From assembly GCA_030950585.1 (NCBI GenBank), contig JAUZRG010000157.1, positions 1-51,891 on the forward strand: DNA of 51,891 nucleotides. The letters run 5' to 3'. The position numbers were made by a program, and so were the translations under genes. Positions within the stretch are counted from its first letter, which is position 1. The number at the start of each line of letters is the position of its first letter. The DNA is from Mariprofundaceae bacterium. Its GTDB lineage: Bacteria; Pseudomonadota; Zetaproteobacteria; Mariprofundales; Mariprofundaceae. Below the pieces are notes generated by a model that was given only the letters and a program-made list of their open reading frames with translations, was not told where the DNA came from and did no database searches. Below, piece after piece: positions 7,607 to 48,472 of the stretch.

Positions 7607-7619
7607 TGGGTGGAGAATA

Positions 7620-7817: not shown

Positions 7818-7837
7818 ATAAGGCTCAGGAGTATTAA

Positions 7838-8191
7838 ATGCCTCGTGTAAATTCTGGTGTTAGTGCACACGCACGTCATCGTAAAGTTATTAAAGCTGCC
7901 AAGGGTTACCGTGGCCGTCGTAAAAGTTGTTTTCGCATTGCTACACAAGCAGTGGATAAAGCACGTCAATATGCATATCGTGATCGCAAGGTACGTAAAC
8001 GTGAGTTTCGTAGCCTTTGGATTAGCCGTATCAATGCTGCTGCACGCGTGAATGGCTTAAGCTATTCTCGTTTCATGCATGGCTTGATCAAAGCTGGTGT
8101 TGAGCTTGATCGTAAAGTATTGGCGGACATTGCTGTCAATGATTCAGCTGCTTTTACATTGCTTTCAGAAAAAGCAAGTGCAAACCAATAA
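7838..8191 (+). CDS. rplT: 50S ribosomal protein L20
   Basis: L20 binds 23S rRNA early in 50S assembly and in many bacteria also represses rpmI-rplT translation. The 117-residue length is standard. Signature stretches are [19 protein letters not shown] at residues 14-32, [19 protein letters not shown] and the C-terminal [10 protein letters not shown]. The ribosome-binding site is CAGGAG. It is the last gene before the hairpin at 8219-8244. Confidence 0.97.
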
Positions 8192-8218
8192 TTAATAAAT
8201 CATTATTATTGTGATCTA

Positions 8219-8244
8219 GGGTGGGCATGTGCCCACCCTTTTTT
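8219..8244 (+). terminator. strong intrinsic terminator between rplT and pheS, possible attenuator
   Basis: GGGTGGGC (8219-8226) pairs perfectly with GCCCACCC (8231-8238) across a four-base loop, followed by a run of T. The 3' arm can alternatively pair with GGGTGGG at 8254-8260, which overlaps the pheS ribosome-binding site, so two mutually exclusive structures are possible. No Phe-rich leader peptide was found. Confidence 0.85.
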
Positions 8245-8266
8245 ATTTTAAAGGGGTGGGTTTCTC

Positions 8267-9316: not shown

Positions 9317-11661
9317 AACTCCCTTTATCATGGTTATTAGAACACGTGGCTTTGACATGCTCTATTGATGCCATTGCTAAAGCTTTGACGGATTTAGGTA
9401 TTGAAGTTGAAGGTATTGATTACCCTGCTGCTTCGATTGAAGGTGTGCTTGTTGGCCAAATTCAATCCATGCAACCGCATCCCAATGCGGATCGATTGCG
9501 TTTATTGCAAGTTGATGTGGCTGGTGATCAGCCTTTAGCCATCGTTTGTGGTGCTTCCAATATGGTGGAAGGTGATAAAATTGCCTTGGCCACGGTAGGT
9601 ACTTATCTTCCTGGTGATTTTAAGATTAAACGTGGCAAAATCCGTGGTGAAGTTAGCCTTGGTATGTGTTGCTCAGAAGTCGAACTCGGCTTAGCTGATG
9701 AGGCAGAAGGGATTCTTATTCTTGATTCCAGTACTGAGGTGGGAAGCGATGTTTCAGCCTATTTGGGTTTGGAAACAGCTATTTTAGATTTATCTATTAC
9801 GCCAAACCGTGGCGATTGCATGAGTGTGTATGGTTTAGCGCGTGAATTGGGTGCTTATTTTGACGTTCCTCTCACCTTAAAATCACTTGAAAAAACGGTA
9901 TTTGATGCAGATGTTGCCACGCCTGTGGTTCATATTGAAGATCAAGATGATTGTCCTTTGTATATGGCACAGCAAATTGAAGGTGTTGTGCTGACTGATT
10001 CACCGCAATGGCTAGCGCAGCGTTTACAAGCTTGTGGTATGCGTACTGTGAACGGTGTTGTGGACGTGATGAACTATGTGATGTTGGAAATCGGCCAACC
10101 GATGCATGCCTTTGATCGTGCTATGGTGAAAGGTGATCTTTACGTCCGTCGTGCCAATGCCGAAAGTATGAAAGGTTTGGATGAGCGTGAACTTAGCCTA
10201 AATGCTGAACACTTAGTGGTGGCTGATGATCAAGAAGTGATTGCAGTGGCTGGTGTGATGGGCTCGCTTAGTTCGGGTGTGACGGCTCAAACCACGTCTT
10301 TAATTTTAGAGTCAGCTGTTTTTCAAGCTGCCCGCGTCAGTACGGTAGCACGTCAATATGGCTCTGTGACAGAAGCTTCGATGCGTTTTGAGCGTGGTGT
10401 GGATAGGGCGCAAACTGCGGTGGCATTGCAACGGGCAACATCTTTAATCACGACATTGTTTGGTGGTCGTGTGAGTGCCGTTGAGCAGTGTGGTGATGGT
10501 GAGTGGACTAAGCATAAAATTCAATTTCCGATTTCTGCTATTGCCAAACGTCTAGGCATTGATGTGCCTGAATCGACAGATCTTGTGTTGCAAGGCATGG
10601 GTTTTTCTATTGAGCGTGACGAAAGCACGATTCGTGTTTCTGTGCCTGCACATCGTCATGATGTTCGTCTTGTGGAAGATGTGATTGAAGAGTATGCACG
10701 TATTTATGGTTATGATCATATTCCAACGGTTTTACCTGCCATCGCCATGAATGTGGCAGCGCCTGCACCCAAACGTTTATTGGATCATGTGGTGGCACAA
10801 GGTTTTACCCAAGTCATTAACTATGCTTTTATTTCTGAAAAGCAGCAGCGTTTGTTTAGTAGCTCACCTGAAAAAGATGTGAGATTGCTTAATCCGATTA
10901 GTGCTGAAATGTCTGTGATGCGTCATAGTTTATTTCCAAGTTTATTGGCCAATGCACAGTACAATTTGAACCGCCAACAAAGCCGTGTGTGTTTGGTTGA
11001 AGAGGGTCGGAGTTACTTCTCTGAAGAGAAGGGTTTTCAAGAAGTAAATCAGCTGTCTTTATTATGGGCTGGTGAAGCTGGATCTGACCGCTGGTATCAA
11101 GATGCGAAATCAGTGGATTTTTTTGATGTTAAAGGCGTGGTCGAGACCGTTTTAAAACAAATGGGACAGTTACCACGTTGGCAAGCATGTGATGATATTC
11201 AAGGTTTACAAGCAGGGCAAACAGCCGTTTGGCAACAAGGCAAACGTCGTGTTGCCGTGCTGGCAAAGGTGAGCCGAGGTATTGCCAAGTCGTATGATTT
11301 AGATGGTGATGTGTTTGTGGCTGAAATTAATTTAGATATGTTATCTCAATCTAAAAAACCTGCCTTTAAAGCATTGGCACAACACCCAAGCGTGACCAGA
11401 GATCTGGTATTTTTATTTTCAAATGCATGCGTTGTGGATGATATTTTAGCAGTTGCACGTAAAGCTTCAGGCAAAGCATTGCAAGATGTGCGAATTTTTG
11501 ACCGTTATGATGGCCAAGGTGTGGCTGAAGGCTTTGTGAGTTTGGGTATTCGTCTGACTTTGCAGGCAAATGATCGCACACTACAGCAAGCAGAAGTCGA
11601 TGATATTGCCAAAAAAGTGGTGACAATGATGGCTAAGAAATTCTCTGCTCAGCAACGTTAA
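9313..11661 (+). CDS. pheT: phenylalanyl-tRNA synthetase beta subunit
   Basis: PheT provides editing and tRNA-binding functions. The 782-residue length matches bacterial PheT. Domains in order: the EMAP-like tRNA-binding domain (about 40-150, with PHPNADRLRLLQVDV), the B3/B4 editing domain (about 210-380, with VNGVVDVMNYVMLE), the B5 domain (about 400-475), the catalytic-like core, and the C-terminal ferredoxin-fold anticodon-binding domain (about 690-780, HPSVTRDLVFLF). The ATGA overlap with pheS shows coupling. The ihfA gene that often follows is absent; rnhB comes next. Confidence 0.97.
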   Translation: MKLPLSWLLEHVALTCSIDAIAKALTDLGIEVEGIDYPAASIEGVLVGQIQSMQPHPNADRLRLLQVDVAGDQPLAIVCGASNMVEGDKIALATVGTYLPGDFKIKRGKIRGEVSLGMCCSEVELGLADEAEGILILDSSTEVGSDVSAYLGLETAILDLSITPNRGDCMSVYGLARELGAYFDVPLTLKSLEKTVFDADVATPVVHIEDQDDCPLYMAQQIEGVVLTDSPQWLAQRLQACGMRTVNGVVDVMNYVMLEIGQPMHAFDRAMVKGDLYVRRANAESMKGLDERELSLNAEHLVVADDQEVIAVAGVMGSLSSGVTAQTTSLILESAVFQAARVSTVARQYGSVTEASMRFERGVDRAQTAVALQRATSLITTLFGGRVSAVEQCGDGEWTKHKIQFPISAIAKRLGIDVPESTDLVLQGMGFSIERDESTIRVSVPAHRHDVRLVEDVIEEYARIYGYDHIPTVLPAIAMNVAAPAPKRLLDHVVAQGFTQVINYAFISEKQQRLFSSSPEKDVRLLNPISAEMSVMRHSLFPSLLANAQYNLNRQQSRVCLVEEGRSYFSEEKGFQEVNQLSLLWAGEAGSDRWYQDAKSVDFFDVKGVVETVLKQMGQLPRWQACDDIQGLQAGQTAVWQQGKRRVAVLAKVSRGIAKSYDLDGDVFVAEINLDMLSQSKKPAFKALAQHPSVTRDLVFLFSNACVVDDILAVARKASGKALQDVRIFDRYDGQGVAEGFVSLGIRLTLQANDRTLQQAEVDDIAKKVVTMMAKKFSAQQR

Positions 11662-29784: not shown

Positions 29785-30891
29785 ATGTCGAAAGTTACAA
29801 CAGTTGATTTATTCTGTGGAGCAGGAGGATTTACCGAAGGTTTTTCAAAAACGAATGCTTATGAGGCTATACTTGCCGTTGATTTTGATAGGCAAGCGGT
29901 CGATACTTTTAACCACAATCACCCAAATATTAATGCCATTTGCTCTGATATATGTAATCTTAAAAATAAAGATTTACTGTCATTAACCAAGAATAAAAAA
30001 GTTCAAGTGATCATTGGTGGACCTCCATGCCAAGGTTTTAGCTTAGCAGGGCAGCGATTGCCAGATGACCCTAAAAATCAGCTTTTTAGGGAATATATTC
30101 GGACTGTTAATATTCTTCGTCCTAATGTGTTTGTTTTTGAAAATGTTGTTGGGATACTTTCTATGCAAGGAGGGCTTGTTGTTGAGGCTATTTGCGAAGA
30201 GTTTTCTCAGATAGGATATGAAGTGTCATATGGCATCCTAAATGCTGCCGACTATGGGGTTCCTCAGGCACGCCCAAGGTTCATTTTAATCGGCTCAAGT
30301 GATGGTAAAAAAATTGGAATGCCACCACCAACACATGATGTACCATCAAATTGCAAAGCCAACCTATTTAATGATGGTCTCACGCCTCATGTTTCAGTTA
30401 AAGATGCCCTATCCAGTCTCCCTACTATTGAACAGGGACAAGGTGCGGAAGAAATAGATAATTCATTTCCAGTGACTGATTTTCAAAGAAATATTATTGG
30501 GTCGCGTAAGCCAGGACGTTTATTTAATCACCGAGCAACTCGGCATGGTGAGAAAATAGTTAAGCGGTATTCAGCTATGCCTCAAGGTGGCGACGTTCGG
30601 TCGGTACCAGAAGAGTTGAGAACAAAGAAAAATAATGTATTCAGACTTCTTGATTCCACGCCATCTAGGACTATTACATGTAATTTTAGAACTGATATCA
30701 TTCACCCATGGGTGCCTAGAGGATTAACTACGCGCGAAGCTGCAAGACTACAGAGCTTTGATGACGACTATCAATTCTTTGGAAATCTCACACGAAAAGC
30801 GAAATATGTCACACAGGACGATCAAGTCGGTAATGCTGTACCTCCTCTACTTGCGAAGGCTATAGCTGAACACATTAAGGATTTCTTATGA
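29785..30891 (+). CDS. DNA (cytosine-5-)methyltransferase
   Basis: The 368-residue enzyme transfers a methyl group to C5 of cytosine in its recognition site, protecting host DNA from the adjacent nuclease. Motifs in order: I DLFCGAGGFTEGF (residues 9-21), IV GGPPCQGFSLAGQR with the catalytic Cys near 81, VI VFENVVGI, VIII QARPRF, and X GNAVPPLLAKAI at the end. The target-recognition region lies between VIII and IX, near residues 200-310; its specificity cannot be read by eye. The stop overlaps the endonuclease start (ATGA). Confidence 0.95.
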   Translation: MSKVTTVDLFCGAGGFTEGFSKTNAYEAILAVDFDRQAVDTFNHNHPNINAICSDICNLKNKDLLSLTKNKKVQVIIGGPPCQGFSLAGQRLPDDPKNQLFREYIRTVNILRPNVFVFENVVGILSMQGGLVVEAICEEFSQIGYEVSYGILNAADYGVPQARPRFILIGSSDGKKIGMPPPTHDVPSNCKANLFNDGLTPHVSVKDALSSLPTIEQGQGAEEIDNSFPVTDFQRNIIGSRKPGRLFNHRATRHGEKIVKRYSAMPQGGDVRSVPEELRTKKNNVFRLLDSTPSRTITCNFRTDIIHPWVPRGLTTREAARLQSFDDDYQFFGNLTRKAKYVTQDDQVGNAVPPLLAKAIAEHIKDFL

Positions 30892-31817
30892 GTAAATCAA
30901 CACGTTCATCGAGCGGGCACAAGTTAGGGCAGATAGTTGGAGATTGGTTTGAAGAGGAAGTTGCAGTTGATTTGCTCTCGCAAGTAGCAAGTAAGCTAGG
31001 TTTGTATTTAGATCATCGATTTAGATCACGTATTTGCCGAGGAAGTAAAGTCCTTTGGGAAGATTTAGATGGAAATAATGTTGATTATGATTTTGTTTTA
31101 GAGCTAGGGGGAACTGATAATAAAAAGGGTATCCCGCTTGCGTATTTTGAAACATTTTGGCGGCGAGGAGCAAGGCACTCAAAAGATAAAGCTCGTGATG
31201 ATTCTGGAAAACTTATGCCTATGAAAATAACATACCCCACGACTAGAGTTCTTGGGATAATCTCAGCTGGTGATTTTACTAAGCCTGCCCAAGAACTCGT
31301 CCAAAGCAGGGGAATTGATCTCTTTTATATTCCAAAATCTCACATCTGCAAGGCATGGGAAAATGTTGGGATCCAAGTTGATTATGAAGATTCAGCAACA
31401 GAGGAAGAGAAAAGAAGGGTGGCTGATAATGCGGTCTCTAAGCTTGATAAGGAAACTAAAACAGAAATTTTCAGTCATTTAGTTTCAATTGTTGGTAAGG
31501 CTGTGTTTGACTCATATATTCAGAGAATTATTGCGGGGGTGGCAGCTATTCCTCTCGAATTTAGAATTACTAAATTTTTGGTCGGTTCGCCAGTTATATT
31601 TTCTAATCATGAAGATGCCAAATCTTACCTGAAATCAAGTCTAGAAGTGGGCGAAATAGAGGTGAAGTTAAGCCTTTTTCGGTATCAGGCAATATTTAGC
31701 GATGGAAATATTTTCCAGCGTGCTGATTTGTCTAAGGAAGAGGCATTAGAGCTTCATGAAACGGTTGGTGACGTGGCAAAATACTTTAGTAAACACCATG
31801 CGGATAGGCATTCTTAA
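30888..31817 (+). CDS. putative type II restriction endonuclease
   Basis: The 309-residue protein follows the methyltransferase with a four-base overlap, the usual arrangement for a type II pair. A nuclease-like core is visible: an acidic NVDYDFVLELGG strand, then PLAYFETFWRRGARHSKDKARDD in two adjoining pieces, with Asp, Glu and Arg/Lys spaced as in PD-(D/E)xK folds. This assignment is by pattern and context; no named enzyme is recognised. No Vsr-type repair nuclease is adjacent. Base composition matches the methyltransferase, not the upstream operon. Confidence 0.75.
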   Translation: MSKSTRSSSGHKLGQIVGDWFEEEVAVDLLSQVASKLGLYLDHRFRSRICRGSKVLWEDLDGNNVDYDFVLELGGTDNKKGIPLAYFETFWRRGARHSKDKARDDSGKLMPMKITYPTTRVLGIISAGDFTKPAQELVQSRGIDLFYIPKSHICKAWENVGIQVDYEDSATEEEKRRVADNAVSKLDKETKTEIFSHLVSIVGKAVFDSYIQRIIAGVAAIPLEFRITKFLVGSPVIFSNHEDAKSYLKSSLEVGEIEVKLSLFRYQAIFSDGNIFQRADLSKEEALELHETVGDVAKYFSKHHADRHS

Positions 31818-32500: not shown

Positions 32501-33355
32501 TTATTTAGATCTCTGTGAATCAATCATGAGTTGATAGCCAGATCTGTTTTGCCAATTATTCAAGTCAGCAGATAGTTTTGTCATGACAAAATCATCTTTT
32601 CTATAAGCCACGCGTAAAGATCGTTCTAACTCTTCACTTTTGACTCCTTTGCCACCTTTTTCCGTTATATATAGAGCCAATGCTTTCACAGCATCATGCC
32701 CATTGCATAGGTTGAAATAGTCATGTGCACCATCAATTTTATGGTTGATTTCTTGTTCTTGAATAGAGCGTTTTTTATTCGGTGAACGTGCTTCGATGTT
32801 TTGGATACATTGTATTTTATCTAGATCCATATTGGCCGCATCATAAAAATCGCCCAAGCCAATGCCTTTAAATTTCAAACACAAATCCTCAAGGTTATTT
32901 AGCCAGCGAACGCCACCAACAAATGCCAAAGAGCTAAGTAACTTTTCGCGTAGGATATTAAACTGGCTGGACTCACTGGGAATATGTTCGCACAGCAAGT
33001 GTTGAAAAACCGTGTCGCAGGCGAGCATAAGCATCTCGGAATCATGGGTGTCAGTGACAAATAATCTATCAATGATTTCCTGTTGCTGATCCATATGAAG
33101 AAAATCAGCATCACGAATACCAATGACTTTATCGTTTTCTTGGACGAGAATTAGCATGACTTCGCGCAATACTAGAAGACCACCACCATGCACGATTTCA
33201 ACTTTGGTGTTTTCACAGTCCAATAGCTTGGAATATAGTTTTTGATCAGTCATACCCTCAACCAAAACCCATACATAGTTTTTTCCAATGGGATGCCGAC
33301 TGGATTGCCGAATTTCGCCAATAGTATCTTCTTTATTTAGATGCTTCTGCATCAC
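32501..33355 (-). CDS. DUF4435 TOPRIM-like protein, PARIS AriB-like
   Basis: The 284-residue protein has TOPRIM features: the conserved Glu in WVLVEGMTDQKLY near residues 28-40 and a DxD-type motif in VIGIRDADFLH near 80. This matches DUF4435, the AriB toxin component of PARIS, a two-gene phage defence system; the E. coli AriB is known to cleave tRNA when released. It overlaps the upstream ATPase gene by 23 bases and precedes arfB. The assignment to PARIS rests on domain pair and order; other AAA-DUF4435 pairs exist. Catalytic residues appear intact. Confidence 0.72.
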   Translation of the reverse strand: MMQKHLNKEDTIGEIRQSSRHPIGKNYVWVLVEGMTDQKLYSKLLDCENTKVEIVHGGGLLVLREVMLILVQENDKVIGIRDADFLHMDQQQEIIDRLFVTDTHDSEMLMLACDTVFQHLLCEHIPSESSQFNILREKLLSSLAFVGGVRWLNNLEDLCLKFKGIGLGDFYDAANMDLDKIQCIQNIEARSPNKKRSIQEQEINHKIDGAHDYFNLCNGHDAVKALALYITEKGGKGVKSEELERSLRVAYRKDDFVMTKLSADLNNWQNRSGYQLMIDSQRSK

Positions 33356-34625
33356 GCAATTCCTCTAAGTCCACTGTCAAATCCCAATGGTTATTAATGA
33401 CTTGAGGAGAGTGCGTGGCAATCACGATATTAATTTTTTGCAACGCAATAATGTCAAAAATATCATCCAAAAATTGTTTCTGCCAAACGACATGTAGAGA
33501 AAGTTCTGGCTCGTCAATCAGAACCAGCGTTCCTGGCTCTACTTTAAACAACAATTCGTAAAGCAGCACAACTTCTTGTTGCTCTCCAGACGATAAATCA
33601 TTTAACGCTAGTGGCTTGCCTTGGTTGGTAGCAAACTTAAAACCTTCCTCTTTGGAAACAGCAATCTTCTTAAACGTAAATCGCCGTTTATTTAGAATAT
33701 TGGTAAATGCTTTTAGCTTGCGAAGTAGCTCTGCAAATACAGCTAATTTTTGTTCAGCATCATTGATATACACATGCAATGCTTTGGCATTCTCCGTCTT
33801 ATAGGTTGGATGCGTATCCTCTTTAATATCAGAGATAGTATATTCACTTAATGCTTTTTGTGTTTTTTTAACGCTATTAAAACGTCGTGTGAATTCGTCT
33901 TCGGATATATCGTTTGTTTGATCAAAAAGCCGACGCGGAAAACTACTGTCTAACTTTTGGGTTATTTGTGAAGATTCGGCTAAGGTTTCTTTTATTTTTT
34001 CGTGCAGCTCTTTAGCGTATTCCTCAATCGTATTTTTAAACCCGCCAATTGATTCATCAGCTTCAAATCTATGTCGCCCATACATCGCTCTTCTTTCATC
34101 ATGAATAACAGGACGCAGTAAACGCTGCTCCCGAATAAAATATACCCTTGGAATTTTAAGTGGCTTTGGCCACTCATTCATTTTCAATTGCTTATAAAAA
34201 TCTGGGAATTCTATTCTCAATATTTGCAGTAAGGGATCCTGACTAACAACTTCTTTGGTACGTCGATCTAACCATTTATTTCCTTCAATGTGACGAAATA
34301 AGGGTAAGTTTTCTTCTATCATTTCTTTAAGTGATTCCGCAGCCCAATGAAAGGGTGTGTCTTTATTGATGATAACTTCAACTTGATTTTTTTCATCTTT
34401 CTTCAATACAATCGTATTGCTATCGGATAAATCAAAAATAATCTTCTTAAAAAGCAAGCCTATAAAAAAGAAACTGTCTTGTGATGCCAAAGCATCTATT
34501 ATTTTTAAAACGGTTGTCTTGCCGTAGCCATTTGGCCCCGTTAAAATAGTTACACCTTCAGCTTTAAGCTCAATGTCATAATCGAAAATATCAAATAACT
34601 TTTCAATTCTTATTTTCGTCAACAT
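33333..34625 (-). CDS. ABC/SMC-like AAA ATPase, PARIS AriA-like
   Basis: The 430-residue protein has Walker A TGPNGYGKTTVLKI near residue 30, a long helical insertion, the signature LSSGEQQEVVLLYELL near 345, Walker B GTLVLIDEPELSLH near 371, and a switch His in IATHSPQV near 403. This is the AAA_15/21 class found in AriA, which holds AriB inactive and senses phage anti-restriction proteins in PARIS. AGGAG lies five bases before the ATG. It is the first gene of ariA-ariB-arfB. An OLD-family nuclease is excluded because the TOPRIM domain is in a separate gene. Confidence 0.78.
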   Translation of the reverse strand: MLTKIRIEKLFDIFDYDIELKAEGVTILTGPNGYGKTTVLKIIDALASQDSFFFIGLLFKKIIFDLSDSNTIVLKKDEKNQVEVIINKDTPFHWAAESLKEMIEENLPLFRHIEGNKWLDRRTKEVVSQDPLLQILRIEFPDFYKQLKMNEWPKPLKIPRVYFIREQRLLRPVIHDERRAMYGRHRFEADESIGGFKNTIEEYAKELHEKIKETLAESSQITQKLDSSFPRRLFDQTNDISEDEFTRRFNSVKKTQKALSEYTISDIKEDTHPTYKTENAKALHVYINDAEQKLAVFAELLRKLKAFTNILNKRRFTFKKIAVSKEEGFKFATNQGKPLALNDLSSGEQQEVVLLYELLFKVEPGTLVLIDEPELSLHVVWQKQFLDDIFDIIALQKINIVIATHSPQVINNHWDLTVDLEELRDAEASK

Positions 34626-35031: not shown

Positions 35032-35667
35032 ATGAACAAAATAATCTTAAAAGCATCGTTTTTGGCTTTGTTTAGTTTTGGTTTTATGGGTCTTGTGGCA
35101 GCCAATCCCTGTGCAGGGCCAAACCCTTGTGCAGCACCGAACCCTTGTGCAGCACCGAACCCTTGTGCAGCTCCGAATCCTTGTGCAGCTCCGAATCCTT
35201 GTGCAGCACCGAACCCTTGTGCAGCACCGAATCCTTGTGCAGCGCCTAATCCTTGTGCAGCGCCTAATCCTTGTGCAGCGCCTAATCCTTGTGCAGCTAA
35301 CCCTTGTGCAGCTAACCCTTGCGCAGCAAATGAGAAAAAAGCGATTCGTTCACATGCCTTTGATAACTTTGAACAAGCTGCGGCTTTGGGTGAAAAAATG
35401 TGGCGCAATGAAAGCTTAGGAACATCGGGTTTGGCTTGTTTATCTTGTCACTCAGATAATGCGATGTTGAATTTTGATGTTGCAGGTGCTTTTCCACATT
35501 ATGTGGACATGGTTGGTGATGTGGTCAGTTTGGATCAAATGATTAACTATTGCATGTTAAACCCCATGAAAGGCAAGCAATTTGGTAAAAACTCAAAAGA
35601 ATTAACCGCAATGGCTGCTTTCTATCGTCAGTTACGCATGAACTATGATGCAAAGCACAACAAATAA
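35032..35667 (+). CDS. periplasmic c-type cytochrome with NPCAA repeat region
   Basis: The 211-residue product has a signal peptide ending LVAAN, then 13 units of NPCAA or NPCAG, ten of them spaced by proline, at residues 25-99, and a C-terminal monohaem domain with CLSCH near residues 139-143 and Met candidates such as MLNPMKG as the sixth ligand. The Cys-Pro-rich region adds 13 cysteines and might bind metal or crosslink. GGAGG before ATG 35032 gives a strong ribosome-binding site. It is a single-gene unit ended by the hairpin at 35690. Confidence 0.85.
   Translation: MNKIILKASFLALFSFGFMGLVAANPCAGPNPCAAPNPCAAPNPCAAPNPCAAPNPCAAPNPCAAPNPCAAPNPCAAPNPCAAPNPCAANPCAANPCAANEKKAIRSHAFDNFEQAAALGEKMWRNESLGTSGLACLSCHSDNAMLNFDVAGAFPHYVDMVGDVVSLDQMINYCMLNPMKGKQFGKNSKELTAMAAFYRQLRMNYDAKHNK
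35104..35328 (+). repeat. tandem 18-bp coding repeat (PNPCAA units)
   Basis: One 15-base unit (NPCAG), ten 18-base units (PNPCAA) and two 15-base units (NPCAA) lie head to tail in frame. Codon choice is nearly the same in each unit (cct tgt gca), so the array has expanded recently or is homogenised. Such arrays change copy number by slippage, so its length may vary between strains. Confidence 0.97.
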
Positions 35668-35689
35668 TTCATCTGGTGAATAATGTGTG

Positions 35690-35720
35690 AAGGCTTAGCT
35701 TGATAGCTAAGCCTTTTTTT
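35690..35720 (+). terminator. intrinsic terminator after cytochrome gene
   Basis: AAGGCTTAGCT (35690-35700) pairs perfectly with AGCTAAGCCTT (35705-35715) over a four-base TGAT loop, followed by a T run. It ends the single-gene cytochrome transcript. Confidence 0.9.
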
Positions 35721-35817: not shown

Positions 35818-36132
35818 ATGAAAAACTTAACGATGATTGCGCACACGGATGCGCAGCAATATCTAGCACAACATTTGAAGAAAATGAAACAAATTCAAGG
35901 CTTTAGCTTTAGTCATGTCGAAGGGCATGGTTTGGGATATGAGAAAGATGATTTCTTATCAGCGCGTGATGAAGTTTTAGCATCTAGCCCTCGCTTGCGT
36001 GTTGATATTATTTTATCGGATAAGGATGTGGAAATGGTGCTGGATCGTTTGCAGCACGAAGATAATCATGCAAAATTACAAGGGGTCTTCTATTGGCTCA
36101 CTGCCGTGGAAAGAAGGGGGCATTTTTCATGA
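35818..36132 (+). CDS. PII-like small protein (DUF3240-type)
   Basis: The 104-residue protein resembles the divergent PII-like family DUF3240: an N-terminal strand NLTMIAH, a long T-loop-like region with SHVEGHGLGY, then ASSPRLRVDIILSDKDVEMVL and the closing GVFYWLTAVERRGHF. Relatives sit next to membrane transporters or metal-related genes and are thought to bind a small ligand and act on the partner; ligand unknown. It overlaps the HupE-like gene by four bases. The UTase GlnD at 21322 acts on canonical PII, but the uridylylated Tyr loop is not seen here. Confidence 0.65.
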   Translation: MKNLTMIAHTDAQQYLAQHLKKMKQIQGFSFSHVEGHGLGYEKDDFLSARDEVLASSPRLRVDIILSDKDVEMVLDRLQHEDNHAKLQGVFYWLTAVERRGHFS

Positions 36133-37301
36133 GTCTTGCTGCAAAGAAAAACTTGTTTCATTTTAAATCTGTTTTAGCTTTTTTGATACTTACATCATTA
36201 CTTTTATTGATTTCTCAAATGGCGTATGCACATGGGATGTCGGAGGCAGATAAACAAGCCATTGTGGATGGCGGTAATTTGCACTATTTCTGGATTGGTG
36301 CCACGCATATGCTCACAGGTTATGATCACCTTGCTTTTGTGTTTGGTATTATCTTTTTTCTCAGTCACTTTCGCGATATTGTGAAGTATGTGACAGCATT
36401 TACGGTAGGTCATAGTATTACATTGATTGGTGCGACTTTTTATGCGATTCAGGTGAATTACTTTTTGATTGATGCCGTGATTGCATTAAGTGTGTGTTAT
36501 ATCGCTTTTTCCAATCTTGATGGTTTTCGTCAGTATTTAAAAGTAAATCCCCCTAATATGATGATCATGATTTTGGGTTTGGGTTTGATTCATGGTCTTG
36601 GTTTATCGACAAGGCTGCAAGAACTGCCTTTAAGTGGTGATAGTTTATTACTCAATATTATTTCTTTTAACCTTGGGATTGAGTTGGGACAGGTTTCTGC
36701 TTTGGCCATCATGTTGCTCCTCATTGCAGCATGGCGAAAGAGAGATTCGTTTAATAGCTTTAGTCTGATCGCGAACTACGGTCTTATTTTCTTTGGTTTG
36801 TTTTTGTTTCTCATGCAAATGCATGATTATTCACATGATCAAGAAAAGGCTCCTGAAATGGTAATGGCATCAGCTCCTAGTTCTACAGCCGGGAGTACAA
36901 CAAGCGCACAACGCGAAGATCGTTTGGTCATTAACTTGCCGCCACGCGGTGAAATTGAATATAAATTCAATATGAATGAAGGTGATGTGGTTGATTACAC
37001 ATGGTCAACAAAAGACACGGCTCTTTTCTTTGATTTTCACGGTGAACCTAAAGGCGATACCACAGGTTATTTTAAGAGCTATCAAAAGAGTACTTTAAGC
37101 CGATCCACAGGCTCTTTCACGCCTCCATTTACGGGCATTCATGGTTGGTATTGGAAAAACAATAGCGTTGAGAATGTTGAAATTGTTCTGGAATTAAAGG
37201 GCCATTATCAATTGAGTGAAAGCTATGAGAAAAAACGTAAAGCAGTTGCAGTTTCCGTAGAACCTGAAGGTGAATTTATGGATATTGAGCCTGCTAAATA
37301 A
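36129..37301 (+). CDS. HupE/UreJ-like membrane protein with C-terminal soluble domain
   Basis: About 390 residues from ATG 36129, which overlaps the previous stop. An N-terminal export segment is followed by a HupE/UreJ_2 core: IGATHMLTGYDHLAFVFG and FTVGHSITLIGATFY with His residues typical of nickel/cobalt-binding family members, and about six membrane helices up to residue ~235. The last ~150 residues form a periplasmic-looking domain (GEIEYKFNMNEGDVVDYTW, GIHGWYWKNN) of the transmembrane-anchor type. The role is probably metal handling with the PII-like and DUF6488-like neighbours; metal not known. No hydrogenase or urease gene is nearby. Confidence 0.75.
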   Translation: MSLAAKKNLFHFKSVLAFLILTSLLLLISQMAYAHGMSEADKQAIVDGGNLHYFWIGATHMLTGYDHLAFVFGIIFFLSHFRDIVKYVTAFTVGHSITLIGATFYAIQVNYFLIDAVIALSVCYIAFSNLDGFRQYLKVNPPNMMIMILGLGLIHGLGLSTRLQELPLSGDSLLLNIISFNLGIELGQVSALAIMLLLIAAWRKRDSFNSFSLIANYGLIFFGLFLFLMQMHDYSHDQEKAPEMVMASAPSSTAGSTTSAQREDRLVINLPPRGEIEYKFNMNEGDVVDYTWSTKDTALFFDFHGEPKGDTTGYFKSYQKSTLSRSTGSFTPPFTGIHGWYWKNNSVENVEIVLELKGHYQLSESYEKKRKAVAVSVEPEGEFMDIEPAK

Positions 37302-37330
37302 TCATTTTAAAGATCAATAAGGAGAGTTCT

Positions 37331-37684
37331 ATGCTAAAGAAAATGTTGTTTATATTGGTTTTATGTTCCCCGATGTTGCTAACTCAAGCTTTTGCTCATG
37401 GTGGTGGCCATGCCCCCGCCATGACAAGTGAAGAGGTTGTGAGCTTGGCCTCAAAATATGTCGTGAGCTTGGTCAAAAAGAAAAGTGAAATTGATGGCAA
37501 GGCTTTGGATGCGAGTTGGGTAAATATTCCTGAAAAAGACAAGAAAATAGAAAGAGAATTATCTTGGTATTATGTGGTTAGTTTTAAGCATGAAGAAGAG
37601 AAGAAAAAACTTTATTTGATGATTTCAAAAAAAGGAAAATTGTATCGTGCTGATTATGAAGGTGTGTTTAAAGAGTTTGAATAG
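37331..37684 (+). CDS. periplasmic DUF6488-like small protein
   Basis: The 117-residue protein has a signal peptide ending AFAHGGG and a mature part rich in Lys and Glu with strands WYYVVSFKHEE and LYLMISKKGKLYRADYEG. This pattern resembles the DUF6488 family seen beside HupE-like and metal-efflux genes; I am not certain. The N-terminal AHGGGHA stretch could bind metal. It is the third gene of the PII-like operon, with AGGAG ahead of its ATG, and is closed by the terminator at 37703. Confidence 0.6.
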   Translation: MLKKMLFILVLCSPMLLTQAFAHGGGHAPAMTSEEVVSLASKYVVSLVKKKSEIDGKALDASWVNIPEKDKKIERELSWYYVVSFKHEEEKKKLYLMISKKGKLYRADYEGVFKEFE

Positions 37685-38072: not shown

Positions 38073-40238
38073 TCACCCACGCTTCCAAGCTAAGTACTTT
38101 TCAACCCAGCTGATTAGTTTCTTGGGTGCATGATTCTTTTTCCAAGCTCCTGCCACGTATTTATTGGCTTCTGCCAAGGTCGGGTAGGTGTGAATGGTCG
38201 CCATGATTTTATTGAGGCCTAGGCCGTGTTGCATGGCCAGGACAAATTCAGCGATTAAGTCACCTGCGTGTTCGCCCACAATGCATACGCCTAAGATTTT
38301 ATCTTTGTTGGGTACGGTTAGGATTTTCACAAAACCTTGGGTGGTGCCATCAGCAATGGCGCGGTCTAGGTCATCCATAGGATAGGTGGTGAGTTCGTAG
38401 GCGATACCTTTTTCTTTGGCTTCTTGTTCATTGAGGCCAACACGGGCGACTTCAGGATCAATGAAGGTTGTCCAAGGCACCACAGAGTAATCAACTTTAA
38501 ACTTCTTTAAATGGCCAAATAAGGCGTTAACGGTGGCATACCAAGCTTGATGTGCGGCCACATGGGTGAATTGATAAGGGCCAGAGACATCGCCAGCCGC
38601 TAAAATGTTGGGGTAGATGGTTTGTAAGTAATCGTTGGTGACCACGGTTCTGTTGGTTTCAATGCCCAAGTCTTCAAGGCCATAACCACTCAAGCGAGGC
38701 GCACGACCAATCGCGCATAACAATTGATCAAATTGAATGCGTCTTTCATTTTTTTCTTGATCTTGAATGATGATAAACTTTTGATCACCATCACGTTCAC
38801 AACGGATCACATCGTGTTGCAATAAAACCTCAATGCCATCTTTTTGCATGGCTGTCATCGCCAGTTCGGACACATCACTGTCTTCTCGTGCCATAATGCG
38901 ATTACCACGCACGATTTGAACCACCTGAGAGCCTAGGCAGGCCAAACTTTGGGCGAGTTCGCAGCCAATCGGGCCACCCCCTAAAACCACAAGATGTTGG
39001 GGAACATCATCAAGTTTTGCAAAGGTATCCCATAAGGTGTCACTGGTGACATAACCAACATCATCCAGACCTTCTATATTGGGAATGATGGGGCTAGCTC
39101 CAGCTGCAACAATGATATTTTGTGTGCTTAACTTGGTCTTATGGCCTTCTTTATGGCTAATTTCGACAGTCCAAGGGTCAATGATGCGGGCATAACCTTG
39201 TTGTACATCCACACCAAGTTCGCTGTAACGCTCAACGCTATCGTGGGGCGCAATGGCGGCGATGATGGCATGTACACGCGCCATGACTTTTTTGAATGAT
39301 AAACGTGGTTGACTCGCTTCTAAACCATAATGATCAGCATGGCGTATTTGGCGGGCTAAGCGTGCCGATTTAATCAAGGACTTGCTGGGAACACAGCCGT
39401 AGTTCAAACAGTCGCCACCCATTTTATGAGCTTCCACCAGTGTGACTTTGGCTTTCACGGTGGCTGCAATATAAGAACTGACCAAACCCGCTGCACCTGC
39501 ACCGATGACGATCAGGTTGCGATCAAATGTTTTGGGTTTTTTCCACTTAGAATATAAACGACGTTTTGAAAACATGTGTAGCCCCTTACTAGCAATCAAT
39601 GGAAATAAGCCTAAAAGGATAAAAGAGAAAAGAAGGCTTGGCGATAGAATATCTGAAAGTGTGTTGAGTTGAGCCAGCTGTGTGCCTGCATTCACATAAA
39701 CCAAGGTGGCTGCCAGCATGCCGACTTGGCTTACCCAATAATAGGTCCAAGGACGAATCGTTGTTAAACCCATTAAGACGTTAACGATAAAAAAAGGAAA
39801 GAGAGGAATCAGGCGTAAACCAAAGAGGTAGAAAGCCCCATCTTTTTGTATCCCCGCATTGATGGCTTGCAGTTGTTGCTGAAAGCGTGTTTGCACCCAA
39901 TCGTGAAAAAGATAACGCGAAATGAAAAAAGCACACAATGCGCCAAGGCTAGAAGCAAAGGAAGCGATGATCGTTCCACCGATGACACCAAAAACAGCAC
40001 CAGCGGCCAAGGTTAAAATCACAGCACCAGGTAAAGAGAAAGCAGCGAAAAGAACATACAGAATAAAAAAGAGAGCAATCGTCTGGACGGGGTTTTCTTG
40101 ATAAGCTTGCTGGAGTGAATGAAGCTGCTCTTTGAGCACATGCAGGTGAAAATAGCTATCAAGATTAAAGGCAAAAAAGCAGATGAAAATCAAAGCGGCG
40201 AAGCTTATGATCAGACCTTTTTTGATGTTCTTGTTCAT
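38073..40238 (-). CDS. VTT-domain membrane protein fused to mercuric-reductase-like flavoprotein
   Basis: The 721-residue protein joins two domains. Residues ~1-225 form a VTT/DedA-like (TVP38/TMEM64) membrane domain with about six helices. From about 235 on it is a class I pyridine-nucleotide disulfide oxidoreductase: FAD motif VIGAGAAGLVSSYI, redox pair in GGDCLNYGCVPSKS near 275-280, second NAD(P) motif VVLGGGPIGCELAQ, and the His-Glu dyad region HTYPTLAEA. Mercuric-binding N-terminal and C-terminal cysteine pairs are absent, so it is not MerA; substrate unknown. Start 40238 has AGGGGAA upstream; an in-frame ATG at 40253 is less likely. Confidence 0.9.
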   Translation of the reverse strand: MNKNIKKGLIISFAALIFICFFAFNLDSYFHLHVLKEQLHSLQQAYQENPVQTIALFFILYVLFAAFSLPGAVILTLAAGAVFGVIGGTIIASFASSLGALCAFFISRYLFHDWVQTRFQQQLQAINAGIQKDGAFYLFGLRLIPLFPFFIVNVLMGLTTIRPWTYYWVSQVGMLAATLVYVNAGTQLAQLNTLSDILSPSLLFSFILLGLFPLIASKGLHMFSKRRLYSKWKKPKTFDRNLIVIGAGAAGLVSSYIAATVKAKVTLVEAHKMGGDCLNYGCVPSKSLIKSARLARQIRHADHYGLEASQPRLSFKKVMARVHAIIAAIAPHDSVERYSELGVDVQQGYARIIDPWTVEISHKEGHKTKLSTQNIIVAAGASPIIPNIEGLDDVGYVTSDTLWDTFAKLDDVPQHLVVLGGGPIGCELAQSLACLGSQVVQIVRGNRIMAREDSDVSELAMTAMQKDGIEVLLQHDVIRCERDGDQKFIIIQDQEKNERRIQFDQLLCAIGRAPRLSGYGLEDLGIETNRTVVTNDYLQTIYPNILAAGDVSGPYQFTHVAAHQAWYATVNALFGHLKKFKVDYSVVPWTTFIDPEVARVGLNEQEAKEKGIAYELTTYPMDDLDRAIADGTTQGFVKILTVPNKDKILGVCIVGEHAGDLIAEFVLAMQHGLGLNKIMATIHTYPTLAEANKYVAGAWKKNHAPKKLISWVEKYLAWKRG

Positions 40239-40321
40239 TGCGTTTCCCCTCAATGCAGCGAAGTGCTGCTAAGCGTAAGTAGTCGCAATAAACAAGAAGC
40301 TCTTACAATCGTTTGATTTTT

Positions 40322-44340: not shown

Positions 44341-44674
44341 GATTCGCCCCATGAATGTTAATGAAGAGCAAATCAAACAATCCAGCGAAGGTCTCAAAGC
44401 TTTGGCTCACCCACTACGCTTAACGATTATTTGCTATTTAATGGATGATGAGCTTTGTGTCAGTGATTTAGAAAAGAAAACGGGTGCGTTACAATCCAAT
44501 CTATCACAACACCTGTCTAAAATGCGCAGCTTGGGTGTCATCGCCAGCAAAAAGCGCGGACAGCATGTTTATTATCGTTTGGCCAATTCTCAATGGAGCC
44601 AAGTAGTTTATGCCTTACAAACCATGTATTGCCCCAAAGTCATCTTACAAGAGGAAAATAAACATGCAAGTTAG
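44339..44674 (+). CDS. ArsR-family persulfide-sensing repressor (BigR/SqrR-like)
   Basis: The 111-residue winged-helix protein has the ArsR core KALAHPLRLTIICYL, helix-turn-helix LQSNLSQHLSKMRSLG and wing RGQHVYYRL. C32 (in IICYL) and C98 (in TMYCPK) are 66 residues apart, the same spacing as the two persulfide-crosslinking Cys of SqrR/BigR; metal-site cysteines are absent. It likely represses the operon until reactive sulfur species link the two cysteines. The first ATG is at 44339 with no ribosome-binding site; ATG 44351 is an alternative. It ends 11 bases inside the next gene. Confidence 0.9.
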   Translation: MIRPMNVNEEQIKQSSEGLKALAHPLRLTIICYLMDDELCVSDLEKKTGALQSNLSQHLSKMRSLGVIASKKRGQHVYYRLANSQWSQVVYALQTMYCPKVILQEENKHAS

Positions 44675-45182
44675 CATTCAGGCGTTTCACAAAAAGCTAA
44701 TGAAAGGCGAAATCAATCACTGGATTGATGTACGATCTGTGGCTGAGTTTAAATCTGAACGTGCCGACTGTGCCATAACCGTGAATCACCCTCTTGATCA
44801 AATTAACACCCTTAATTTACCAAAATCAGCCACTATTTATCTATCTTGCCGTTCTGGCGTACGCTCTAGCAAAGCGCAGAAAGCATTGCGTAACCGTGGT
44901 TTTAACGATGTCATTAATATTGATGGTGGCTATTTAGCTTGGCAGCAAGCCAACTACCCTGTGACCAAAACACAAGGCCAATTTCCGATCATGCGCCAAG
45001 TGCAAATCATTGCTGGCCTTTTGATTCTTATCGGTTCTCTTGGCTCTATTTTTCTCATTCCTGAACTCATATGGCTAGCCGTTTTTGTGGGTGCAGGCTT
45101 AAGTTTTGCTGGCCTATCAGGCTGGTGCGGTATGACCACCGTTCTTAGCATCATGCCTTGGAACAAAAAAGCAAGTTCATAA
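44664..45182 (+). CDS. rhodanese domain with C-terminal membrane helices (YgaP-like)
   Basis: The 172-residue protein has a rhodanese domain (about 1-105) with the sulfur-carrying Cys in YLSCRSGVRSSKAQ near 56, and a DUF2892-type pair of membrane helices (about 112-160). YgaP-like proteins carry sulfur at the cytoplasmic face of the inner membrane. Start ATG 44664 has AGAGG upstream and overlaps the repressor gene; the longer frame from 44610 is not supported. It is the second gene of the sulfide operon. Confidence 0.9.
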   Translation: MQVSIQAFHKKLMKGEINHWIDVRSVAEFKSERADCAITVNHPLDQINTLNLPKSATIYLSCRSGVRSSKAQKALRNRGFNDVINIDGGYLAWQQANYPVTKTQGQFPIMRQVQIIAGLLILIGSLGSIFLIPELIWLAVFVGAGLSFAGLSGWCGMTTVLSIMPWNKKASS

Positions 45183-45201
45183 CATATAAAGGAAGATAAC
45201 C

Positions 45202-45888
45202 ATGATTTTAAGACAATTATTCGATGAAGATACTTGGACATACACCTACTTACTCGCTGATGAAGAAAGCAAAGAAGCTGTCTTGATTGATTCCGTGCTT
45301 GAACAACTCGAACGTGACCTGACTTTAATCAAAGAATTGGGTCTTAAACTAAAATACACCTTAGATACCCATGTACATGCCGACCATATCACCGCTTCAG
45401 GTCCTTTGCGTGAACGCACGGGTTGCCAAACAGGTATTTCTGAGAAAGGCAATGTGGCGTGTATCGACCTTCATTTAAAAGGTGGTGATATTTTGTCCTT
45501 GGGAAGTAAAAACCTTAAAGTGCTTGCAACGCCCGGCCATACGCCTGGTTGTATTTCTTTTGTTTGTGAAAACATGGTCTTTACAGGTGACTCGCTCTTC
45601 ATTCGTGGTTGTGGCCGCACAGACTTTCAAAATGGTGACTCTGGCCAACTTTATGATGGTATCGTCAATGAGTTATACACCCTTCCTGATGAAACCTTGG
45701 TTTATCCTGGCCATGATTACCGCGGCCAAATGGTCTCTACCATTGGTGAAGAAAAAGCATTTAATCCTCGCCTAAACTTAGGCCGTGAAGGCTTTATCAC
45801 GTTCATGAACGAACTTGATATTCCCAACCCTAAAAAACTCAATGAATCTGTTCCTGCTAACTTGGCATGTGGACACGTCGCCTCATAA
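45202..45888 (+). CDS. pdo: persulfide dioxygenase (ETHE1-like MBL-fold enzyme)
   Basis: The 228-residue protein oxidises glutathione persulfide to sulfite with O2 and a mononuclear iron. It shows THVHADHITASG with the metal-binding His/Asp cluster near 55-65, GHTPGCISFV, GDSLFIRGCGRTDFQ (the ETHE1-specific stretch) and the closing VYPGHDYRG. Length matches bacterial persulfide dioxygenases, not larger glyoxalase II proteins. AAGGAAG precedes its ATG. It acts after the SQR at 46382. Confidence 0.93.
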   Translation: MILRQLFDEDTWTYTYLLADEESKEAVLIDSVLEQLERDLTLIKELGLKLKYTLDTHVHADHITASGPLRERTGCQTGISEKGNVACIDLHLKGGDILSLGSKNLKVLATPGHTPGCISFVCENMVFTGDSLFIRGCGRTDFQNGDSGQLYDGIVNELYTLPDETLVYPGHDYRGQMVSTIGEEKAFNPRLNLGREGFITFMNELDIPNPKKLNESVPANLACGHVAS

Positions 45889-45915
45889 AAGTACAAACAA
45901 AGAAGGAGATCAACC

Positions 45916-46347
45916 ATGCCCCAAATCATCAAAAAACATTTATCCTTTCTGTCGATTTTAATCCTACTGGCATTGCCGCTTAGCGTCTCAGCCTGTGGCA
46001 TCAGCGAAAAAACACATGCTGGTTATGAAAATGCTTCGCTTGAGCATGCCTATCAGCACTGGAAACAAGGTGAGAAATCATCTATTCCCTTTGCCTTTTT
46101 AGATGTACGAAGTATCGAAGAATACAATCAAGGCCATATTGCAGGTGCGATTCATATTCCCATTCAACAATTAGCCCAACGCCTCAATGAATTACCCAAA
46201 GACAAACGTTTATATGTGCATTGTGAAGCAGGTGTTCGTTCTGCCAAAGCAGCCGCATTATTGATTGATTCAGGCATCAGAAATATTGAAAACATGCCCG
46301 CTGGCATGGCGGGCTGGCGAGATGCCGCTTATCCCATTGAAAAATAA
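45916..46347 (+). CDS. exported lipoprotein rhodanese
   Basis: The 143-residue protein has an N-terminal hydrophobic segment with a lipobox-like LSVSAC, so the Cys near residue 27 may be lipidated and the protein anchored facing the periplasm. A rhodanese domain follows: FLDVRSIEEYNQGHIAGAIHIP, active-site loop HCEAGVRSAKA with the catalytic Cys near 101, and GMAGWRDAAYP. It may move sulfane sulfur outside the membrane to make thiosulfate. A good AAGGAG precedes the ATG. Confidence 0.88.
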   Translation: MPQIIKKHLSFLSILILLALPLSVSACGISEKTHAGYENASLEHAYQHWKQGEKSSIPFAFLDVRSIEEYNQGHIAGAIHIPIQQLAQRLNELPKDKRLYVHCEAGVRSAKAAALLIDSGIRNIENMPAGMAGWRDAAYPIEK

Positions 46348-46381
46348 AACACCTATTAAATTATTGCCCTAGGAGTTCATT

Positions 46382-47581
46382 ATGAGTGCAATCAAACATC
46401 AAATTGTCATCGTTGGTGGTGGTACTGCGGGTATTGCGACCGCAGCACATTTAAAGAAAAATAATGCCTGCCTTGACGTAGCCATTATTGAACCATCTGA
46501 TGTTCATTATTATCAACCGGGTTTTACCTTTGTGGGTGCTGGTATCTACAAACCTGAGAAAACCAAACGCCCGATGGCATCCGTCATCCCTGAAGGTGTG
46601 ACTTGGCTGAAAGATAGCGTGCTGTCTTTTGACCCTGAAAACAACACCATTACCACCGAAAAATCTGGTGAAATTGCCTATAAAGGCCTTGTGGTTGCTG
46701 CTGGCATCAAGATTGATTGGGATGCTGTTGATGGACTTGCAGAAGCCATCAAAACAGAAGGTGTGTGCAGCAATTACACCTATGAAACTGCTGACAAAAC
46801 ATGGAAAACCATCAAAAGATTTAAGGGTGGCACAGCCATCTTCACCCAACCCAAACCACCTTTTAAATGCCCAGGTGCTGCGCAAAAAATCATGTATTTA
46901 GCCGATGAAGCCTTTCGCAAACAAGGTGTACGCAACAAAACAGATATTAAATTCTTTGCTGCTGCACCCAGTATCTTTCCTATCAAACACTATGCAGATC
47001 CTCTCAATGCTGTGATTGCACGCAAAGAACTCAACACCAATTTCAAGCACCACTTGGTGGCTATTGATGGCAAGAAAAAAGAAGCCACCTTTGAACACAC
47101 TGAAACAGGTAAAAGAACCACCTCTAAATACGATATGATTCATGTGACACCACCTCAATGCGCACCAGACTTTTTAAAAGGTAGCCCCCTTGCCAATGCA
47201 GGTGGTTGGGTCGATGTGGATAAGTTCACCTTGCAATCGACTAAGTTTTCAAACGTCTTTGCCTTAGGTGATTGCTGTAGCGCGCCATGCTCCAAAACAG
47301 CGGCAGCGATCAAAGCACAAGGCCCTGTGGTTGTTTCTAATTTATTAACTGTCTTGGCAGGTGGAGAAGCAGGCACAGCTTATGATGGTTATGCCTCCTG
47401 CCCACTGGTCACAGGCTATGGTAAATTGGTATTGGCTGAATTTGATTACAATATGCAGCCCAAAGAAACCTTCCCTTTTGACCAAGGCCAAGAACGTAAA
47501 AGTATGTATTACCTTAAGAAATACGTCTTACCTAAATTCTATTGGGATGTGATGCTAAAAGGCGGCAACTTAGGCGAATAA
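46382..47581 (+). CDS. sqr: sulfide:quinone oxidoreductase, SQOR type
   Basis: This 399-residue FAD enzyme oxidises sulfide to a sulfane sulfur and passes electrons to quinone at the membrane. It starts with IVIVGGGTAGIATAAHL, the FAD site. Redox cysteines are in KCPGAAQKIMYL near 162 and YASCPLVTGYGKLVLAEF near 340, the arrangement of mitochondrial-type SQOR. ALGDCCSAPCSKTAA near 296 closes the FAD site. The type II features match human SQOR motifs, so the product is probably a small thiol persulfide, which suits the neighbouring dioxygenase. Confidence 0.93.
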   Translation: MSAIKHQIVIVGGGTAGIATAAHLKKNNACLDVAIIEPSDVHYYQPGFTFVGAGIYKPEKTKRPMASVIPEGVTWLKDSVLSFDPENNTITTEKSGEIAYKGLVVAAGIKIDWDAVDGLAEAIKTEGVCSNYTYETADKTWKTIKRFKGGTAIFTQPKPPFKCPGAAQKIMYLADEAFRKQGVRNKTDIKFFAAAPSIFPIKHYADPLNAVIARKELNTNFKHHLVAIDGKKKEATFEHTETGKRTTSKYDMIHVTPPQCAPDFLKGSPLANAGGWVDVDKFTLQSTKFSNVFALGDCCSAPCSKTAAAIKAQGPVVVSNLLTVLAGGEAGTAYDGYASCPLVTGYGKLVLAEFDYNMQPKETFPFDQGQERKSMYYLKKYVLPKFYWDVMLKGGNLGE

Positions 47582-47609
47582 AAGCCCCTTCACGGCTTAG
47601 AAAACTTTC

Positions 47610-47642
47610 AAGGGTTGTTACCACACGTAACAACCCTTTTTT
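47610..47642 (+). terminator. intrinsic terminator between sqr and tauE-like gene
   Basis: A perfect 12-base stem AAGGGTTGTTAC (47610-47621) with GTAACAACCCTT (47627-47638), five-base loop and T run. It would reduce expression of the exporter and methyltransferase relative to sqr. Confidence 0.92.
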
Positions 47643-47671
47643 CATCGACTCAACACAGGAGCACAAGCAAC

Positions 47672-48472
47672 ATGGAAACCATGATGATTATCGGTCTTAT
47701 TTTCGCTGTTATAATGGGCATAACCTTAGGGGTCTTTGGTGCAGGTGGCTCCATATTGACCGTACCTATCCTTGTTTACTTGATGGGTATATCAGCATTT
47801 CAGGCCACAGCCTATTCCTTGTTTATTGTCGGCATCACTTCACTTTTTGGAGCCTATGCCTATTACAAAAAGGATTTTATTCAATTTAAAATCGGCTTTA
47901 TATTTGCAATACCTGCATTCATCGGTGTGTATAGCGTGCGCTTATGGCTTATGCCTGCCTTGCCTGAGCATATTGCCAGTTTTGGCAACTGGGAACTTAG
48001 CAAAGAAGCTCTCATTCTCATGGTCTTTTCCATCATCATGATTATGGCAGCCTATGCCATGATTAAACCATCTAAAAAAGAAGATAATAGCCAACACAAA
48101 GCACTCAACTACCCCCTTATTGGCTTTGAAGGTCTTATCGTTGGTGCAGTCACAGGTTTTGTGGGGGCTGGTGGTGGCTTTTTAATTATTCCTGCCTTGG
48201 TGATGTTGGCAGGTTTATCCATGAAGCAAGCCGTGGGAACATCCTTGATGATTATTGCCATCAAATCCATTTTTGGCTTTATGGGTGATATTCAATCAGG
48301 CATGATGATCAACTGGATATTATTATTTGAAATCACCATCTTATCTATCCTTGGTGCATTCATTGGTGAACGCATGAGTCGCAAGATAGATGGCAATAAG
48401 CTCAAACCTATTTTTGGTTATTTTGTGTTGATCATGGGAATTGTTATGCTCTTGCGTGAAATAACCGTCTAA
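47672..48472 (+). CDS. TauE/SafE (TSUP) family sulfur-anion exporter
   Basis: The 266-residue integral membrane protein has about eight helices and the two TSUP repeats, with glycine-rich GVFGAGGSILTVPILV near residues 20-35 and GFVGAGGGFLIIPALVML near 165-182. Family members export sulfite, sulfoacetate or thiosulfate; sulfite from persulfide oxidation is the likely substrate here. Start ATG 47672 has AGGAG ten bases upstream; the frame begins earlier at 47615 but without support. Confidence 0.9.
   Translation: METMMIIGLIFAVIMGITLGVFGAGGSILTVPILVYLMGISAFQATAYSLFIVGITSLFGAYAYYKKDFIQFKIGFIFAIPAFIGVYSVRLWLMPALPEHIASFGNWELSKEALILMVFSIIMIMAAYAMIKPSKKEDNSQHKALNYPLIGFEGLIVGAVTGFVGAGGGFLIIPALVMLAGLSMKQAVGTSLMIIAIKSIFGFMGDIQSGMMINWILLFEITILSILGAFIGERMSRKIDGNKLKPIFGYFVLIMGIVMLLREITV

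Follow-up and report, generated by a model that had tools for sequence, protein, structure and literature searches.

The window, meaning the whole stretch of 51,891 nt analysed here, comes from a Mariprofundaceae bacterium (GCA_030950585.1, contig JAUZRG010000157.1, forward strand). At 35032–35667 (+), its open reading frame and translation give a 211-residue secreted monohaem cytochrome c. The protein opens with a Sec signal peptide (residues 1–24, MNKIILKASFLALFSFGFMGLVAA; 35032..35103, +), read from the sequence by its positive start, hydrophobic core and the AA preceding the array, with a presumptive cleavage point. An array of 13 Asn-Pro-Cys (NPC) units follows (residues 25–99; 35104..35328, +; sequence and Tandem Repeats Finder), and the remainder is a monohaem cytochrome c domain of SoxA/TsdA type (residues 100–211; 35329..35664, +; PF21342, AlphaFold and fold search). 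A sequence-only reading had described a secreted cytochrome whose signal peptide and monohaem domain flank the repeat; the frame agrees, with one CxxCH, and the array coordinates and unit count given there are exact.

The array is made up of a single NPCAGP unit, nine of NPCAAP and three of NPCAA, and so holds 13 cysteines. Tandem Repeats Finder reports it at 35110–35312 (period 18, 91% matches, score 259), in keeping with the near-identical repeat DNA claimed earlier, and it dominates the tandem repeats of the 52 kb window, where the sole other array scores 50. Pairwise codon comparison of the ten 18-base units yields 86 synonymous and 9 nonsynonymous differences, and all 9 of the latter trace to a single GGG codon of unit 1; the amino-acid motif has therefore been held while the DNA drifted. 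The spacers are Ala/Pro only and CxxC spacing is absent. The array has no CxxCH, which rules it out as a set of haem c sites.

The gene stands alone beside a likely defence island, and an intrinsic-terminator-like hairpin with a T tail lies just 3′ of it (35689..35716, +). The terminator scan returned 1 site against 1.5 expected in shuffles; the evidence lies in where the site is, not in the scan by itself. With the hairpin directly after the cytochrome gene, the transcript in the window therefore probably carries one gene. Upstream lie a Type II restriction-modification pair (29785–31817, +; cytosine methyltransferase and REase_II, PADLOC E 1e-82) and an AAA ATPase gene whose best PADLOC match is AriA (E 9e-25); this gene overlaps one of 284 residues that matches DUF3226 weakly (32501–34625, −), and the two make up a candidate two-gene defence pair. 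Past the hairpin, genes for a P-II-like DUF3240 protein, a HupE/UreJ-type membrane protein and DUF6488 (35818–37684) make up a likely metal-related set, whose standing as partners is weakened by the intervening hairpin and by their lack of recurrence in related loci. A 726-residue protein that fuses a VTT (DedA) membrane domain to a mercuric-reductase/lipoamide-dehydrogenase-like flavoprotein follows (38073–40253, −); its homologues occur near NPC cytochromes at L067, L090, L093 and L104, and a flavoprotein of this type sits beside an NPC-only gene at L107. Farther along, a sulfide/persulfide cluster (44610–48472) includes a rhodanese with a YgaP-type membrane segment, a second rhodanese, a persulfide-dioxygenase-like protein of metallo-beta-lactamase fold, a type III sulfide:quinone reductase-like protein and a TauE exporter.

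Distribution and conservation of the NPC array

We examined 100 relatives (61 family genomes and 39 more distant ones), and a scan of 84,980 species gave 72 related loci. Sequences from the family genomes are identical to named contigs, such as those of Mariprofundus micogutta and Mariprofundus sp. EBB-1, by which the family is presumably Mariprofundaceae. The haem domain finds a match in 36/100 relatives, and all full-length strong matches bear NPC arrays. The 72 loci come from Mariprofundaceae (Mariprofundus, Ghiorsea), Gallionellaceae, Nitrospirota, Nitrospinota, Tectomicrobia and "Deltaproteobacteria", and all their full-length cytochromes except one (L091) carry NPC arrays, of 2 to 35 units. 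These loci supply similar repeats, of the kind that the sequence-only reading had mentioned for marine proteobacterial cytochromes; array loss in close relatives, which it had set against its own proposal, is the opposite of what we see, since the arrays are kept. Its expectation that copy number varies holds between species, with 3 to 15 units across the Zetaproteobacteria. In the Zetaproteobacterial clade the arrays are confined to the N-terminal side; elsewhere they mostly flank the domain on both sides. A domain tree built from few columns contains two supported clades, one of Zetaproteobacteria with most other groups and one of Gallionellaceae with one Mariprofundaceae genus.

Across the family, Asn occupies position −2 for 684/712 array cysteines and Pro position −1 for 697/712, and all 316/316 Zetaproteobacterial array cysteines lie within NPC. 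Cys-Cys spacing, by comparison, varies from 3 to 13 residues, with spacers such as SMKKH, AAK and AAP. Because NPC stays constant while spacing and spacers change, selection acts on the tripeptide; the earlier suggestion that the cysteines matter was thus right in spirit, with NPC conserved and the spacers not. NPC tails are a conserved working part, found in at least six bacterial groups. At the DNA level, a pattern of three successive NPC codon triplets is present in 36/61 family genomes and, read backwards, in 0/61, which makes three such triplets in a row a simple search handle for the motif.

Some arrays are very regular. A Deltaproteobacterial homologue (L082, 5410–6324) has about 30 near-perfect NPCAA units ahead of its haem domain. 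Mariprofundaceae genus g14 (L124, L130, L132, L134) encodes Gallionella-type NPC cytochromes as well as NPC-only arrays of great regularity, NPCNA and NPCEAK; its OmpA-type proteins L133 and L139 bear NPC tails.

The haem domain and its pentahaem partner

Residues 120–198 match the Pfam family SoxA-TsdA_cyt-c (PF21342, E 3.3e-12, 46.7 bits against a cut-off of 27), and the protein falls short of the NCBI SoxA equivalog cut-off (47.9 against 110 bits). Structure prediction, one of the checks put forward in the sequence-only reading, gave a SoxA/TsdA fold with a pLDDT of 94.4 for the haem domain in the AlphaFold model. Foldseek against the PDB placed SoxA or TsdA at all of ranks 1–13 (TM 0.62–0.68, at E of only 3e-3 to 8e-2), and a profile of 36 relatives matched SoxA at E 1e-14 and TsdA at E 5e-5. 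By its Pfam match and predicted fold, the domain belongs to the SoxA/TsdA cytochrome c superfamily.

Residues were compared in alignment A2, 36 diverse members built from locus references (the nine-row query alignment A1 was used only for finding loci). Invariant in 36/36 members, in window numbering, are among others CxxCH, Met160, Asp168, Met170, Cys174 and Pro178; in the window the haem-binding motif is CLSCH (residues 136–140; 35437..35451, +), with its C, C and H the invariant positions. Cys174 (35551..35553, +) aligns with TsdA Cys123 of the precursor (Cys96 of the mature protein), the catalytic-haem ligand on which an S-thiosulfonate intermediate forms (PMC4423706). Met160 (35509..35511, +) and Met170 (35539..35541, +) fall on TsdA Arg109 (mature 82) and Arg119 (mature 92), both of which bind thiosulfate (PMC4423706). 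Arg119 is invariant in the catalytic sites of TsdA and SoxA, and the family has Met there in 36/36. With Cys174 on the ligand position and methionines on the two arginines, the ligand cysteine has been kept and the thiosulfate site lost. His and Cys are the most likely haem ligands. The best PDB match is domain 1 of SoxA, which also has Met at the Arg119 position and which we take to be the domain without an active site.

The single CxxCH in 211 residues leaves no second haem domain, and no SoxX-type or TsdB partner appears among the recurrent neighbours of family loci. SoxY was found in 0/61 family genomes, and the same search was positive in 18/39 more distant genomes. Because methionines replace the thiosulfate arginines and SoxY was not found in the 61 genomes, a Sox or Tsd enzyme proper is ruled out.

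Neighbour clustering places a pentahaem cytochrome gene at 57/72 loci, almost always directly downstream; its product has five CxxCH (a truncated frame encodes fewer) and a C-terminal beta domain. Among the 61 family genomes, the gene is present in 28/28 with an NPC cytochrome and in 7/33 without (Fisher 4e-11), and NPC DNA arrays are present in 33/35 genomes with the gene and in 3/26 without (2e-11), with both tests ignoring shared ancestry. Some genomes keep the pentahaem gene without an NPC cytochrome. The predicted structure of the partner (pLDDT 81) matches the fold of Thermochromatium tepidum c552 (5ze8, E 1.7e-15), its alignment profile matches the selenoprotein MccSep (9wt9, E 4e-17), and its ExtKL scores of 53.8 and 66.1 bits do not reach the equivalog cut-off of 250. 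The five CxxCH and the 5ze8-like modelled fold assign it to the PHC/ExtKL pentahaem family. Members of this family include Geobacter ExtKL, linked to selenite reduction and rhodanese (PMC5877670), and pentahaem proteins of cable bacteria (PMC11976967).

A small secreted NPC-only gene lies beside the cytochrome at at least 20 loci, often upstream, and rhodanese genes adjoin the module in three Deltaproteobacterial loci. At L035, L047 and others, genes for an ArsS radical SAM protein, a peroxiredoxin-like protein, ArsM, the NPC-only protein, the NPC cytochrome and the pentahaem protein run in one direction. ArsM is near the cytochrome in Nitrospirae and Deltaproteobacteria as well (L068, L072, L084, L093), and a link to arsenic or thiol chemistry is possible. 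In another family of the order, an NPC-only gene (L110, 1489–1671, −) adjoins a CcsA-type cytochrome c assembly-like gene.

The window's genome has two NPC arrays only, that of the window gene and that of an 84-residue NPC-only protein on contig C154 (L004, 8628–8882, −). The NPC-only gene is flanked there by an ArsS-type radical SAM gene (9103–10098, −) and the pentahaem gene (7395–8483, −), so that here the cassette is divided between two contigs.

Candidate roles of the array

We tentatively favour, short of calling it probable, an explanation in which the tethered NPC thiols serve a haem ligated by Cys, and electrons pass between that haem and the pentahaem protein. The SoxA/TsdA-type monohaem domain would be tied to a flexible array of NPC thiols, and the array and the small NPC-only protein would offer many equivalent thiols to an open, cysteine-ligated side of the haem. 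By analogy with SoxAX loading SoxYZ, the haem domain could oxidise or load these thiols, giving S-S or S-sulfane bonds, and electrons would go on to the pentahaem partner. The array, its conservation, the fold, the ligand cysteine, the loss of arginine and the tie to the pentahaem gene are computed results; haem ligation, the role of NPC thiols as substrate and the direction of electron flow are what the proposal would add to them. The fold, the ligand Cys, selection on the array, co-occurrence with the pentahaem gene, the NPC-only companions and the rhodanese neighbours support a thiol array serving the haem. Against it stand the absence of SoxY from the family genomes, the location of the partner genes on another contig in the window's genome and the genomes that have the pentahaem gene and no cytochrome. 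Since Met replaces Arg119 and SoxA domain 1 is the nearest match, electron carriage may be all that the haem domain does.

Two rivals, metal binding and thiol tethering, have to be taken seriously. In the former, which we regard as possible if somewhat unlikely, the NPC cysteines would ligate a periplasmic metal or metalloid of soft or borderline character (Cu(I), Fe(II), Ni, Zn or As(III)), with Met, His and Lys of the spacers assisting in many relatives, and the array would buffer it, store it or form a metal-thiolate relay linking cytochromes. Many Zetaproteobacterial spacers (SMKKH or AMKHKM) are rich in Cu(I)-type ligands, but Met and His are not conserved: spacers are Ala/Pro in the window and AAK in other phyla, and N, P and C alone are constant. 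A C-N-P-C run gives CxxC, a spacing that the window array lacks. ArsM (14 loci) and ArsS (8 loci) genes lie close to the module, both in Zetaproteobacteria and in Nitrospirae and Deltaproteobacteria, yet 53/61 family genomes have ArsS, with or without NPC proteins. The DUF3240, HupE and DUF6488 genes do follow in the window, though on the far side of the terminator-like hairpin.

Thiol tethering, or an assembly tag, is a less likely alternative, in which NPC arrays would cross-link or associate through disulfides or mixed clusters and so gather the cytochrome, the NPC-only protein and envelope anchors into one periplasmic assembly that extends an electron-transfer head. It would account for one tag being shared by unrelated envelope proteins: OmpA-type proteins (PF00691, E 1e-15; L133, L139) carry NPC tails at their C-terminus, and NPC arrays also stand before a different CxxCH domain with no Pfam match (L137), on small lipoprotein-type proteins (L121, L136) and alone. 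The OmpA fusions, however, are confined to one genus, and anchoring alone leaves the conservation of Asn and Pro ahead of nearly every Cys unexplained. A c-type cytochrome precursor with free Cys arrays would presumably also be at risk during haem attachment.

We consider it very unlikely that an enzyme recognises NPC and modifies each Cys there, or cuts at Asn-Pro, after the manner of repeat-type modified peptides. The strict tripeptide and free spacers would suit such a motif, and the radical SAM gene ArsS adjoins the NPC-only gene in the window's genome and lies near the module in eight other loci; its frequency in genomes lacking NPC proteins weakens it as a dedicated maturase, and no other maturation gene recurs among the neighbours. 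Least credible of all is a functionless linker made by neutral slippage, which the homogeneous window DNA, the tendency of such repeats to expand and shrink and the differing unit numbers between species might suggest, since nearly all inter-unit differences are synonymous, Zetaproteobacterial array cysteines sit in NPC without exception despite changing spacers, and arrays flank the domain on both sides in distant phyla.

Relation to known systems

Zetaproteobacteria have many periplasmic cytochromes without an assigned role. The haem domain and the pentahaem partner belong to known families, and the window gene is apparently a secreted member of an undescribed NPC-array cytochrome family: in the literature searched, open-access with few subscription journals, we found no description of the NPC array and its cassette. 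A section of one study (PMC5566968) describes other multihaem proteins without assignment and not the NPC cassette. The sequence-only reading, for its part, held neither the SoxA/TsdA-type haem domain with its conserved ligand Cys, nor the pentahaem cassette, nor the OmpA-type tails.

The conserved cassette of NPC-only protein, NPC cytochrome and pentahaem protein is recognisable from iron oxidisers to subsurface lineages in several phyla, and it joins a catalytic-type haem ligand position with a repeated thiol motif under strong selection. If the thiols are indeed substrate or ligand of the haem, the redox chemistry would be one undescribed in the open-access literature searched. More broadly, and rather doubtfully, NPC arrays may be a general envelope thiol module, borne by Cys-ligated cytochromes, another CxxCH domain, OmpA-type proteins and stand-alone peptides, that with the pentahaem protein would form an undescribed thiol-based redox or electron-relay system common to iron-oxidising Zetaproteobacteria, Gallionellaceae and several subsurface lineages.

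Compared with the SoxA/TsdA Cys-ligated cytochromes c (PF21342; 1h31, 4wq7), the window family has the same fold, the CxxCH and the Cys at the catalytic-haem ligand position; it differs in its single haem domain, its NPC arrays, the Met in place of the thiosulfate-binding Arg, its position below the SoxA equivalog cut-off and the lack of any observed SoxX, SoxYZ or TsdB partner. SoxAX-SoxYZ offers a functional analogy only, that of a Cys-ligated haem acting on the Cys of a flexible peptide arm. SoxY carries one GGCGG-type arm, whereas the NPC proteins have many units and the 61 family genomes have no SoxY. Within the PHC family (Geobacter ExtKL, T. tepidum c552, MccSep and the sPHC of cable bacteria), the partner shares the five CxxCH and the C-terminal beta domain; it lies under the ExtKL cut-off and is linked to NPC cytochromes, not to a porin. 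No MNIO-type gene was recognised among the recurrent neighbour clusters of NPC loci. Bufferins and other metal-binding peptides with repeated cysteines are secreted and carry a repeated short Cys motif, EGKCG; the NPC cytochrome is likewise secreted with a repeated Cys motif, but that motif is NPC.
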